Positions 48,258-52,996 of a DNA stretch of 64,000 nt are shown here, piece after piece. The stretch's first letter is position 1. Each line of letters starts with the position of its first letter. The notes under the pieces are model-generated. The model worked only from the letters and a program-made list of their open reading frames with translations. It was not told the origin of the DNA and ran no database searches. The stretch is from Desulfitibacter sp. BRH_c19 (GTDB taxonomy: Bacteria > Bacillota > DSM-16504 > Desulfitibacterales > Desulfitibacteraceae): the NCBI GenBank assembly GCA_001515945.1, contig LOER01000016.1, positions 345,614 to 409,613 on the forward strand, written 5' to 3'. The position numbers and the translations under genes were made by a program.

Positions 48258-48962
48258 TTATCTCAAACTACCGATTTCATTTGCGCTCTTTTTCATTATC
48301 TCATCTTGGGTTAAAAGCATTCTCTGATTTAATTGAAAAAGCCTAAGGGCCTCTATTACTTCAGCCATAGCTTGTCCTAAATCCACATTGGATCCTTCAA
48401 GGTAACCTCTTTTTAACTGTGGATTTTCTAGAATGTTTTCCAAAGAAGGGTCTGAAATTGCATAAAGATCCTCCCCGTACTTTGTTAAGCTATCTTCAGG
48501 AGGATTAGCAATTGCAAATGCTTGATCTAAATCTTCATTTTCTACATGTATGTAATCATCATAATACCCTATTGCCCTATAACCTTCATGGGTAACAAGA
48601 TAGCCTTCACTATCTACTCTAAAACTCCCTTTCCTTGTATATAAATCTCCTTGAGGAGTTTCTACTATAAAAAACCCTTCTTCAGCTAGAGCAAAATCAT
48701 AGAGTGCGCCAGTCTCAAACAAGACCCCCATACTAAAATCAGTATGTGTTTCAGATACTTGGGAACCATGGGGCATAACTCCAATTGGTTCAACCTCAGG
48801 ACCACTTACTGAATGTATAAGTGAATCATGAAGTGTTGAAAAAGTAATGTCTCTCTTTTTATAACTTGGTGTATTTATATTAGCAATGTTATCAGACATT
48901 ATATCCTGCTGAAGCTGCCGTGATAATAAACCATTTACGGAAATATACAGTCCTCTGTTAAT
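48258..48962 (-). CDS. Flagellar hook-basal body protein, FlgF/FlgG (FlhO/FlhP) type, apparent ATT start
   Basis: A 234 aa rod protein. The N-terminus after the initiator reads NRGLYISVNGLLSRQLQQD, then MSDNIANINTPSYKK, the flagellar basal-body rod signature. The C-terminus has GSNVDLGQAMAEVIEALRLFQ, typical of FlgF/FlgG. Family members begin Met-x-x-Gly-Leu-Tyr, and the codon in the Met position is ATT 48962, with GGGAGGAGAGG just upstream. An ATG at 49037 lies far upstream, has no site and would add 25 non-family residues. The start overlaps the stop codon of the small gene before it. FlgF and FlgG cannot be separated here. Confidence 0.88.
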   Translation of the reverse strand: MNRGLYISVNGLLSRQLQQDIMSDNIANINTPSYKKRDITFSTLHDSLIHSVSGPEVEPIGVMPHGSQVSETHTDFSMGVLFETGALYDFALAEEGFFIVETPQGDLYTRKGSFRVDSEGYLVTHEGYRAIGYYDDYIHVENEDLDQAFAIANPPEDSLTKYGEDLYAISDPSLENILENPQLKRGYLEGSNVDLGQAMAEVIEALRLFQLNQRMLLTQDEIMKKSANEIGSLR

Positions 48963-49179
48963 TTTCCTCTCCTCCCTTATTATCAGAATCAAATGGTAAT
49001 ACCTCTTGGGGATATACCATACCTTCTTGCCTTGCAAGGCTTTCTATCTCGTACTTAGTGGGTTTGGGTGAGCCAAATGTTATAAGTAATCCAGCAATGA
49101 GAAAACCTATACCTATACCAAATAAAATTTGATTATATTTCTTAATGGTGGTTCTTATTTTTTCAAATTTAAAATTAAT
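48958..49179 (-). CDS. Small single-span membrane protein with apparent ATT start (73 aa)
   Basis: No family was assigned firmly. A TGA in frame is followed by ATT 49179, which has AAGGGTG 7 nt ahead, and there is no ATG, GTG or TTG until a Met codon at residue 54. The product starts MNFKFEKIRTTIKKYNQILF, has one membrane helix (GIGIGFLIAGLLITFG), then KYEIESLARQEGMVYPQEVL, a pattern resembling the end of short MltG/YceG-like proteins near spore and flagellar genes. It overlaps the swrB-like gene by ~25 bp and ends in TAA overlapping the flgF/G-like start, so it is translationally coupled on both sides. Confidence 0.72.
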   Translation of the reverse strand: MNFKFEKIRTTIKKYNQILFGIGIGFLIAGLLITFGSPKPTKYEIESLARQEGMVYPQEVLPFDSDNKGGEEN

Positions 49180-49547
49180 TGTATTTCACCCTTTCCCCTA
49201 TTAAACCTTTTAGCTATATCAACTATTTCTTCTCCTTTGTGATAAGCGTCAATTATCTCATCGTATTCTTCTATGGTTTGTCTCTCTACGAGACTTTGAG
49301 AAAAAGATGGTGCTACTTTCGGACTACCCACATTTCCATATCTTTGGGATGGTACCTCACTTAACCTATCTAGGACTTCTTCTACATTATTTGACAATAT
49401 ATCAATTTTTTCCTCTAATTCCTCAATCTTTTTGTCTTCTGAAATTGGTTTTTTATTTGTTTTTAAAAATGAAATAGGAGTACCATTTAAGGTGGGATAA
49501 ACAACAGCTATGATAATTACGCCTAAAATCAATAAAAAAATTCCCAT
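49155..49547 (-). CDS. SwrB/YlxL-like protein (DUF6115)
   Basis: A 130 aa protein with one N-terminal membrane helix (FLLILGVIIIAVVYPTL), a coiled coil (ISEDKKIEELEEKIDILSNN) and a C-terminal helix-turn-helix-like motif EIVDIAKRFNRGKGEIQLIL. In Bacillus SwrB follows sigD and promotes flagellar assembly; topology and position match. ATG 49547 follows AAAGGAAAATAAACA. The end overlaps the start of the small ATT-initiated gene. Confidence 0.8.
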   Translation of the reverse strand: MGIFLLILGVIIIAVVYPTLNGTPISFLKTNKKPISEDKKIEELEEKIDILSNNVEEVLDRLSEVPSQRYGNVGSPKVAPSFSQSLVERQTIEEYDEIIDAYHKGEEIVDIAKRFNRGKGEIQLILNLKK

Positions 49548-49550
49548 TGT

Positions 49551-50306
49551 TTATTTTCCTTTCTCTAAAAATAACCGAATTTTTAATAAAATTTTGCTCT
49601 TTAGCTGAGATACTCTTGATTCAGTAATATTCATAATATACGCTATTTCCTTTAAAGTAAGTTGCTCATGGAAATACATTGCTAAAACCAACTTTTCCTT
49701 TTCTGTGAGTTCGTCAATTGCTTTTATAAGTTTATCCTGGGTTTCCTTCCATGCAACCTGCTCCTCAGGGTTGTACATAGATGGTGCGGCTAATGTATCA
49801 ATTAAAGCTAAGCCCTCCCCTTCAGTTCCATCTATCCTTAAACTTTCTTGTAAGGAAACACAGCTTAGATGTGCAAACGCCATAATAATCCCATCTACTT
49901 CTTTTACAGACATATTTAGTACTTTAGCTATATCTTCCGAAGTAGTTTCTGTACCCATTTCCTGTTCAAGGCGTTCTATTGTCCTTGAAACCTTTGAAAG
50001 ATTTTCACTTAAACCCCTAGGAATTATCGTGGAATCTCTTAAAGCATCTAGAATCGCTCCTCTAATTCTGAGCGTAGCAAAAGTTTCAAATTTAATGCCC
50101 TTAGCAGGAATAAACCTTTCAACTGCTTCTATTAGCCCAATAATTCCATAACTAATAACATCTTCCCTATCCCAATGTAGTGGCAGCTTTAATGTCATTC
50201 TACCTACTATCTTCTTTACCAAGGGTAGATAACTTTCGATAATGTTATCTCTAATCAGTAGATCTTTATTTAGTTGATATGACTTCCAAAGCTGTTCCCT
50301 TTCCAT
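49551..50306 (-). CDS. sigD: Flagellar/motility sigma factor SigD (FliA/WhiG family)
   Basis: A 251 aa sigma-28 type factor for late flagellar and chemotaxis promoters. Region 2 begins LPLVKKIVGRMTLKLPLHWDRED and continues GIIGLIEAVERFIPAKGIKFETFA. Region 3 shows the GLSENLSKVSRTIERLEQEM pattern. Region 4 has the helix-turn-helix LTLKEIAYIMNITESRVSQL. ATG 50306 has GGATGAG at 5 nt. It is downstream of the PilZ gene and upstream of the swrB-like gene, as in Bacillus. No flgM is seen in the window. Confidence 0.94.
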   Translation of the reverse strand: MEREQLWKSYQLNKDLLIRDNIIESYLPLVKKIVGRMTLKLPLHWDREDVISYGIIGLIEAVERFIPAKGIKFETFATLRIRGAILDALRDSTIIPRGLSENLSKVSRTIERLEQEMGTETTSEDIAKVLNMSVKEVDGIIMAFAHLSCVSLQESLRIDGTEGEGLALIDTLAAPSMYNPEEQVAWKETQDKLIKAIDELTEKEKLVLAMYFHEQLTLKEIAYIMNITESRVSQLKSKILLKIRLFLEKGK

Positions 50307-50317
50307 TATCACTCATC

Positions 50318-51014: not shown

Positions 51015-51884
51015 CTATTCAAATAATCTAAACAACTTACCCATAAAGTTATCAATGCCTTTTGGAGGTTTCATTTTGCCATCAATTAAGTTAACCGCTA
51101 ACTGTTTAACATCACCTGTCGCCTGGCACTTGGGATTAAACATGAAAAAGGGTACTTGGCTACAAACAGCCTTTTCTACATATGGATCCTTAGACACGTA
51201 ACCCAACCTCTTAATTTTAATCTTTAAAAACCTATTAGATACTGCTTCAATTTTACTCGCTGTAGTATTTGCTTCCTTCAAACTAGAAACCTTATTTACT
51301 GCTAAAAACACCTGTGAGTTTATCTCAAACCTAGACAGAACTTTGATAACGCTATATGCATCTGTTATAGAGGTAGGTTCAGGAGTTAACACAACTAAAA
51401 CATCATCAGCTGCCGATATAAAACCTAGAATAGTTCTAGATATTCCAGCACCACAATCAATAAAAAGATAATCGACTTCACTACAAACATTTCTTAACTG
51501 CTCCCACAATAATTCTTGGTGCTGCTTATCAATGCCTGCTATTTCCCCAAAACCTGATCCCCCTGGAATAATCTTGATACCGTAAGGACCCTCTACAACT
51601 ACTTCGTCCAAGGTTTTTTTACCCTTTAACACATTTAGTAGATTATATTGAGGACTTAAGCCCATTAATATATCTACATTGGCCATACCTAAGTCAGCGT
51701 CCAATATCATAACCTTTTTATCAAGTTGCGCAAGGGCAATTGCTAAATTTAGAGTTAAATTTGTTTTGCCTACCCCTCCTTTACCACTAACTACAGATAT
51801 TGTTCTAAAGGAGGGAATAGTTGCTTTTTTATGAGTATTATCTTTTGCGAATAGTTCTCTTAGCCTACTAGCCTGATCTAGCAT
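51015..51884 (-). CDS. flhG: Flagellar number regulator FlhG (YlxH/MinD-like ATPase)
   Basis: A 289 aa MinD/ParA-family ATPase with the deviant Walker A SGKGGVGKTNLTLNLAIAL near residue 33, switch I LDADLGMANVDILMGL and DYLFIDCGAGISRTI. It binds membranes through the C-terminal amphipathic helix (NFMGKLFRLFE) and stimulates FlhF GTPase to set flagellar number and place. ATG 51884 overlaps the flhF stop. Confidence 0.93.
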   Translation of the reverse strand: MLDQASRLRELFAKDNTHKKATIPSFRTISVVSGKGGVGKTNLTLNLAIALAQLDKKVMILDADLGMANVDILMGLSPQYNLLNVLKGKKTLDEVVVEGPYGIKIIPGGSGFGEIAGIDKQHQELLWEQLRNVCSEVDYLFIDCGAGISRTILGFISAADDVLVVLTPEPTSITDAYSVIKVLSRFEINSQVFLAVNKVSSLKEANTTASKIEAVSNRFLKIKIKRLGYVSKDPYVEKAVCSQVPFFMFNPKCQATGDVKQLAVNLIDGKMKPPKGIDNFMGKLFRLFE

Positions 51885-52996
51885 TATTCCACTTCCCCTA
51901 TTATTAACTTGGCCAAACCATCTGGTTCCCCAGGGATAATATCATCAGGAACATTTTGTCCATTGGTGACATAGGCAACAGGTAATTCTGTGGCCTCCAC
52001 TACATTTAAAATTGAACCTAAGCTATAGGTTTCATCTGCTTTAGTAAAAACAAGTTTAGAGTACTTCAAAATACTATATTTATCGACTATTGCTATTAAA
52101 TCCTTATTCTTGGTATTTACATCCAACACCAGATAAATTTCAAGAGGCCTAATTGCATCTAGAAATGTCTTTAATTCGTTAATCTGTTCAGCATTTTTTG
52201 ATGACCTGCCAGCAGTATCTACTAGTATTAAATCACAGTCTTCATGATTTTTTACGGCTAACTTTAACTCCTGGGGAGTCATTACAGCTTCAACTGTTAC
52301 TCCAATTATGTCTCCATAGATTTTAAGCTGAGCAACAGCTCCTATTCGGTAAGTATCAATAGTTATAAGAGCTATGTTTAATCCATGATACAACGCAAAA
52401 TTTGCAGCAAGCTTTGCAATGGTGGTGGTTTTTCCTACTCCAGTTGGACCTATAAAGGCTAGTACATTACTGTTATGGTTTGCTTTGGTAACAGGTATGA
52501 AAAAATCAACCAATTTCTCTGATAATTTATCTTTTATATGAATTCTATTTAGGCATTCATCCAACTCTTGTTTTTGAAAAATATCCTCAACTCTCTTTTC
52601 TACCTCGGGCAAAAGATCTAATTCTTGGAGGATCTTTTTAAACTCTTCATGGGGATCAAATTCCTCTAAGTCACTAACTTTCACAAATGGTTTGCCATTA
52701 GCAGCATTTCTTTCCTTGACTATGATTTGCTGCAATAATTCTTTCATTTCCTGCATTTCATTGCTAACTTTATCATTATTTACTTGTGATTCTTTTACCC
52801 CTTGCTGGGTTGGTTTTTCAACAGGAATTTCATCAACTGCCGCAGTCACTTCAACCATACGCGCTTTCATGAATCCCAAAATGCCCTTTTGCCTAACCTC
52901 CTTAGAATTAATAATAACTGCATCAGGACCTAAATCCTGCCTAATAAGTTGGCATGCTTCCTTCATATCATATGCTAAGTATTTTTTAATTCTCAT
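51884..52996 (-). CDS. flhF: Signal recognition particle-like GTPase FlhF
   Basis: A 370 aa SRP-type GTPase that directs flagellar placement. The basic N-terminus MRIKKYLAYDMKEACQLI is followed by a helical N domain. The G domain shows the P-loop FIGPTGVGKTTTIAKLAA near residue 188, DTYRIGAVAQL, the G3 motif LILVDTAGRS and the G4 motif FTKADET. ATG 52996 overlaps the end of flhA by 11 bp. It precedes flhG. Confidence 0.94.
   Translation of the reverse strand: MRIKKYLAYDMKEACQLIRQDLGPDAVIINSKEVRQKGILGFMKARMVEVTAAVDEIPVEKPTQQGVKESQVNNDKVSNEMQEMKELLQQIIVKERNAANGKPFVKVSDLEEFDPHEEFKKILQELDLLPEVEKRVEDIFQKQELDECLNRIHIKDKLSEKLVDFFIPVTKANHNSNVLAFIGPTGVGKTTTIAKLAANFALYHGLNIALITIDTYRIGAVAQLKIYGDIIGVTVEAVMTPQELKLAVKNHEDCDLILVDTAGRSSKNAEQINELKTFLDAIRPLEIYLVLDVNTKNKDLIAIVDKYSILKYSKLVFTKADETYSLGSILNVVEATELPVAYVTNGQNVPDDIIPGEPDGLAKLIIGEVE

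Follow-up and report, generated by a model that had tools for sequence, protein, structure and literature searches.

How translation could begin on a reading frame that offers no ATG, GTG, or TTG codon before residue 54 is the question raised by a short interval in a flagellar gene set of Desulfitibacter sp. BRH_c19. The window, which is the whole 64,000-nucleotide stretch of DNA that was analyzed, contains in order genes for FlhF-like, FlhG-like, PilZ/YcgR, FliA/WhiG sigma factor, and FipA-like proteins, the frame in question (hereafter the hidden gene), and genes for flgF-like, CheD, CheR, CheC, and CheY-like proteins. The features needed for the discussion are the following.

51884 to 52996, minus strand: FlhF-like SRP-type GTPase gene (PF00448)
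51015 to 51884, minus strand: FlhG-like MinD/ParA-type ATPase gene (PF13614/PF01656)
49551 to 50312, minus strand: FliA/WhiG-family sigma factor gene (TIGR02479 above cut-off)
49155 to 49547, minus strand: FipA-like gene of 130 residues (DUF6115/DUF2802, Pfam), overlapping the hidden gene at 49155-49179
49186 to 49194, minus strand: Shine-Dalgarno-like site AAAGGGTGA, 6 nt before the ATT and inside FipA-like codons; its TGA closes the hidden frame upstream
49177 to 49179, minus strand: ATT, predicted start codon; in the FipA-like gene its A is the last base of Gln123 (CAA) and its TT begins Leu124 (TTA)
48958 to 49179, minus strand: hidden gene, 73 residues, predicted start ATT 49179-49177 and stop TAA 48960-48958
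48971 to 48975, minus strand: GGAGG, 8 nt before the flgF-like ATT and inside the last codons of the hidden gene
48258 to 48962, minus strand: flgF-like rod protein gene (family searches), 234 residues if its start is ATT 48962-48960

An earlier note on this DNA described an intact frame that follows a TGA and has no ATG, GTG, or TTG before residue 54. The window sequence bears this out: the frame is opened by the TGA at 49188-49186 on the minus strand, contains 73 codons counted from the ATT at 49179, and has its first canonical codon, an ATG, at residue 54. The AAGGGTG that had been noticed 7 nt upstream of the ATT was located at 49193-49187. The proposed coupling on both sides is also found, with a 25-nt overlap between the 5' end of the hidden gene and the 3' end of the FipA-like gene (49155-49179) and with base 48960 common to the stop TAA of the hidden gene and the first codon of the flgF-like gene.

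The upstream gene is FipA-like

The gene upstream of the hidden gene had been called swrB-like, and this name was replaced since FipA-like is the better description, based on the DUF6115/DUF2802 matches and the spacing of conserved Gly, Glu, and Leu residues. SwrB of Bacillus subtilis, as presented in the available portion of PMC4526659, is a monotopic protein in a flagellar gene set, which is a likeness of description. The window protein scores 34.5 bits against DUF6115, above the cut-off of 27, and 21.5 bits against DUF2802, below the gathering cut-off of 33.5. Among its relatives, 13/13 match DUF6115 and 11/13 match DUF2802 (E 0.01 or better).

FipA, a DUF2802 protein, is a determinant of the polar flagellum with residues G110, E126, and L129; according to the available portion of PMC11620751, FlhF binding requires G110 and L129. 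The FipA-like protein resembles it in an N-terminal hydrophobic helix (the hydrophobic N-terminus was judged from the sequence by eye), in a C-terminal half assigned to DUF2802/DUF6115, and in the position of its gene just after flhF, flhG, and a FliA-family sigma gene. In addition, its residues G105, E121, and L124, which are invariant in 13 aligned relatives, have the same G-x15-E-x2-L spacing as in FipA. The TT of the predicted AUU start therefore belongs to the codon of the residue that in FipA binds FlhF, and by analogy Leu124 may have an FlhF-binding role in the FipA-like protein. The available portion of PMC11620751 mentions no overlapping second gene.

The hidden gene is under purifying selection and has relatives at the same genomic place

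The hidden protein is 73% identical between congeners. For codons 10-73, two congener pairs have an unsaturated dS and give dN/dS values of 0.12 (G000-G002) and 0.06 (G001-G002); in the third pair dS is saturated. The hidden frame is under purifying selection. These low ratios, together with the conservation of the same overlapping frame in 15 families, rule out a chance open frame.

A search with the 73 residues as a single protein returned one match only (P0002), and searches of Pfam and NCBIfam gave nothing above cut-off for the 73-residue protein. Because these searches gave almost nothing, an alignment of relatives was needed, and profile searches recovered relatives at the same genomic place. 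In the alignment of 32 relatives, a GxGxG membrane helix and an AR..GM.Y/F..E motif are kept. The membrane helix and the conserved-looking C-terminal motif (RQEGMVYPQ) that had been noticed in the window protein alone thus reappear across the relatives. The earlier note also allowed for the frame having no homologue anywhere; instead, the same overlapping frame is present in 42 genomes of 15 families. Its expectation of homologues with normal starts between the same two genes was borne out: relatives do sit between these genes and some do have normal starts, with the correction that the normal starts belong to another clade.

Most of the aligned relatives carry a further domain at the C terminus, with a match to PF02618 (YceG) in 25/32 and to TIGR00247 (MltG) in 20/32 (E 0.01 or better). 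The family profile matches residues 22-102 of PDB 4iiw (Lmo1499; chain 4iiw_A, 349 residues) with an E value of 3.6e-13. The likeness to the MltG/YceG endolytic transglycosylases consists of a single N-terminal helix and this C-terminal PF02618 match. However, the aligned relatives (37-205 residues) end after the PF02618 domain without the rest of MltG and have no full-length catalytic region, and the window protein, at 73 residues, gives no match to PF02618 or TIGR00247 and does without the MltG/YceG-like domain altogether. For a long relative (L012 first), an AlphaFold model of modest confidence (mean pLDDT 76.8, pTM 0.40) has a long N-terminal helix (3-35), a disordered linker, and a small alpha/beta C-domain. 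A scan of named genomes with one family member gave three loci, two titled "Clostridia bacterium" and one Coriobacteriales, the latter 38% identical over residues 99-164 only.

The window protein is predicted to cross the membrane once, with the Lys/Arg-rich N terminus inside and the conserved AR..GMVYPQE segment outside. Because this segment precedes the MltG-like LysM-type domain in most aligned relatives, the protein probably helps basal-body or rod assembly at the membrane-peptidoglycan interface, beside FipA/FlhF and the rod proteins. For the short form of 73 residues, in which the C-terminal domain is absent, this function is a guess.

Conservation of the ATT codon

The overlap arrangement, meaning the same frame with the same upstream gene, was recognized in at least 42 genomes (43 with G369) of 398, representing 15 families. 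This set was hand-picked from the lists of pattern and profile searches. The search pattern left open the third base of the key Glu/Gln codon as well as all six Leu codons, and where several L numbers denoted one place, only one of them was kept. The codon at the predicted start position is ATT in 41 of the 42 genomes and GTT in the remaining one, compared with 8.7 ATT expected from the codon use of neighboring frames. The product of chances over families is approximately 10^-9.6, a rough figure that treats families as independent although the tree favors common ancestry. Leu124, which supplies the TT, is encoded by TTA in 42/42, whereas the control positions Leu126 (40 Leu) and Leu128 (42 Leu) use six and five codons, respectively. 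In eight genomes of family f15, Ala replaces Glu, yet the GCA TTA spelling keeps the ATT at about 60% GC. Three loci that were examined later (L123, L124, and L129) also have the ATT in place. The persistence of ATT can in part be explained by the conserved Glu/Gln-Leu peptide, which permits only ATT, GTT, ACT, or GCT at this position.

A test of 33 loci whose open frame exceeds 30 codons found no in-frame ATG, GTG, or TTG upstream. Downstream, 30/45 overlap-type loci lack a canonical codon 5 or more codons ahead of the glycine motif of the helix, and the other 15/45 have one 7-16 codons before it, where translation could start. In a second, standard arrangement, in which the gene is clear of the overlap, a canonical start is present 5 or more codons ahead of the glycine motif in 28/28 loci; these are the loci in hand or fetched, a subset of the profile-search matches. 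Among the 20 standard-type loci with a readable FipA-like motif (that of L107 being doubtful), the position is ATT in five.

Taken together, no canonical start in the window is placed so as to yield the conserved N terminus, the codon is kept beyond expectation, and a Shine-Dalgarno-like site stands at a suitable spacing. On the strength of these comparisons, we consider it very probable that the hidden gene is a conserved gene whose translation starts at ATT 49179, a codon dual-coded with the Gln and invariant Leu codons of the FipA-like gene.

Individual loci depart from the common pattern. In the fourth locus examined later, L128 (G398), the usual FipA-like peptide is replaced by RKGEAELL, and the hidden frame has an ATT-AAC one codon further downstream, giving the impression of a shifted start. 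In L041 (G284), the sole GTT overlap-type genome, there is no canonical codon before residue 54 and a GUU start is possible.

Alternative explanations

The ATT could be a byproduct of the FipA-like protein, kept only through its need for Glu/Gln-Leu combined with a preference of the genomes for GAA and TTA. The FipA-like peptide is indeed conserved, and three AT-richer standard-type relatives (L014, L017, L019) also have ATT. This explanation was rejected, and we regard it as highly improbable, based on the excess of 41/42 over the expected 8.7 and on the Leu control, in which the other two conserved Leu positions vary in codon. The ATT also persists in the eight genomes where Ala replaces Glu, and it is present in just five of the 20 readable standard-type loci; both observations argue in the same direction. 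A different route into the hidden frame would be −1 ribosomal frameshifting late in the FipA-like gene, whose product would then be extended at its C terminus by a second membrane helix. In its favor, the hidden frame lies at −1 relative to the FipA-like gene, 18/45 loci have an X XXY YYZ heptamer at which a −1 shift would lead into the open frame (TTTAAAT and AAATTTG in the window), and loci with GGG for Gly120 (L010, L022, L037, and others) have A AAG GGG. However, the slippery site is not conserved, with no usable heptamer in 27/45 loci. Moreover, a hidden-frame stop lies within 5 codons upstream of the ATT position in 30/45 loci, and in the GGT loci a TGA follows the AAAGGGT heptamer immediately. 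Frameshifting would also leave the retention of ATT in 41/42 unexplained, and we think it improbable.

Ribosomes might alternatively terminate at the FipA-like stop and reinitiate at a nearby downstream start, in which case the region between the ATT and that start would be untranslated in the hidden frame. The 15/45 overlap-type loci with a suitably placed canonical codon (e.g., the ATG of L007 and of L011) are compatible with this proposal, as is the position of the start in standard-type relatives, about 7-15 codons ahead of the glycine motif. The remaining 30/45 have no canonical codon there, and no place for one is conserved, given that in any column from codons 1 to 13 a canonical codon is common to at most 3/42 loci. 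Furthermore, the overlap ranges from 25 to 55 nt and varies with the FipA stop, while the ATT and its Shine-Dalgarno-like site are fixed relative to the FipA motif. We therefore give reinitiation about the same small chance as frameshifting, and initiation at the dual-coded ATT is the preferred reading.

Shine-Dalgarno-like site and other apparent ATT starts in the same genome

If translation starts at the ATT, the purines upstream of it would serve as the ribosome binding site. Lys119 is encoded by AAG in 39/39 and Gly120 by GGT in 26 or GGG in 16 (42/42), which together spell AAAGGG(T/G)GA, six bases ahead of the ATT. Shine-Dalgarno pairing is stronger than the mean of synonymous recodings in 42/42. 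The excess is moderate (mean z of −1.06), and a median of 19% of synonymous recodings have equally strong pairing, in part since the GKGE peptide is bound to be encoded with purines. The pairing test used letters that we take to be those of the anti-Shine-Dalgarno tail; a search for the 16S gene gave no match in the assembly.

The genome of the window appears to use ATT at infC as well. The infC gene (L121, G000:C46) has GGAGGTGA, followed by 6 nt and then ATT AGT AAA; only two codons of the stop-to-stop frame precede the ATT. The 6-nt gap is the same as that in the GGTGA-AATACA-ATT of the hidden gene.

A similar arrangement appears at the downstream gene. The context of the GGAGG was compared in three congeners. 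In congener L003, the ATT-AAC-AGG-GGA directly follows an in-frame TAA. In congener L004, a TGA is located 5 codons before the ATT, and the codons between the two include no canonical start. The next canonical codon is reached 21 codons into the gene in L003 and 12 codons into it in L004. In the window, two in-frame TTG codons upstream of the ATT are still possible starts. The flgF-like gene of this genus thus appears to start at ATT, and we infer the same start (48962-48960) in the window. Elsewhere, in other loci found by motif search, the flgF-like start is an ATG, GTG, or TTG before [I/L/M/F]-R-G or I-K-G.

Proposed mechanism and comparison with known non-canonical starts

Based on the sequence context, we infer that initiation at the AUU would be coupled to translation of the FipA-like gene: either the ribosomes translating that gene would open the mRNA, or 30S subunits would bind the exposed internal Shine-Dalgarno site. 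Initiation at AUU with formyl-Met would be of low efficiency, and the FipA-like protein would be made in excess over its small-protein partner. The output of the hidden gene would respond to initiation factor IF3, as that of other AUU/GUC-start genes does.

To our knowledge, AUU is accepted as the start of very few bacterial genes other than infC. The infC gene of E. coli has an AUU start, as reportedly does E. coli pcnB, and AUU is excluded as a start by gene finders. According to the available portion of PMC13009471, cvfC1 of S. aureus (AUU, 61 aa) gives about a tenth of the expression obtained with AUG and is conserved among Staphylococci, and S. aureus ccpN and infC start with AUA. The Streptomyces sigR start, a GTC, is repressed by IF3, and 2/34 Streptomyces sigR genes have GTT, as described in the available portion of PMC5472188. 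Because of this GTT in place of GTC, the single GTT among the 42 overlap-type genomes is less troubling. The hidden gene has in common with cvfC1, ccpN, infC, and sigR the lack of a canonical start, a strong Shine-Dalgarno context, and a non-canonical codon conserved in relatives, and it resembles cvfC1 further as a small protein overlooked by annotation. In contrast to these cases, which are conserved within Staphylococci or Streptomyces, the ATT of the hidden gene is found across 15 families of a phylum; its start, predicted from sequence, lies inside the coding sequence of the preceding gene, unlike theirs. The hidden gene would therefore join the genes with non-canonical starts, and what is new is the dual coding and the depth of conservation. 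An open-access literature search, covering titles and the beginnings of abstracts, returned nothing describing the hidden gene or its start.

The earlier note expected gene callers limited to ATG, GTG, and TTG to miss the gene entirely. This holds in the form of truncation, as the matched public calls (P0002, P0003, P0004) begin inside the helix. P0002 is the protein of congener G001 from residue 19 onward, called from an internal TTG, and the calls for P0003 and P0004 (overlap-type genomes G049 and G077) start within the membrane helix and give proteins without their N terminus. An ATT start would correct such annotations and would add an unannotated component to Clostridia-type flagellar operons.

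Evolution of the two arrangements

The two clades amount to a natural experiment, in which one has the ATT locked in the codons of another gene and the other has an overlap-free gene with ordinary starts. If our reading is correct, a weak start can persist over phylum-scale time, and the hidden gene would be a clean target for studying IF3-dependent control. A broader interpretation is offered only tentatively, as we judge the odds to be against it: dual coding would have held the AUU start in place from a time before many families of the phylum diverged, making it the deepest such case outside infC. In the genus of the window, a relay would run from the FipA-like gene through two AUU-start genes in succession, one for the small membrane protein and one for the flgF-like rod protein, and the membrane-rod step would be set below the FlhF/FipA step and gated by IF3, itself apparently AUU-started in this genome.

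A tree was built of 66 proteins (39 + 27 rows), leaving out L005 as too short, L016 and L090 as near-copies, and L027. The two arrangements need 3 changes on this unrooted tree, whose bootstrap is not settled, versus a mean of 21 when shuffled. The standard-type families f7 and f9 are placed among overlap-type rows. The simplest reading of this topology is one old gain of the overlap arrangement with later losses. Three AT-richer standard-type loci, L014 and L017 (f7) and L019 (f9), still have the ATT codon, followed by a stop after 3-6 codons, and these ATT codons are perhaps relics of the overlap state.
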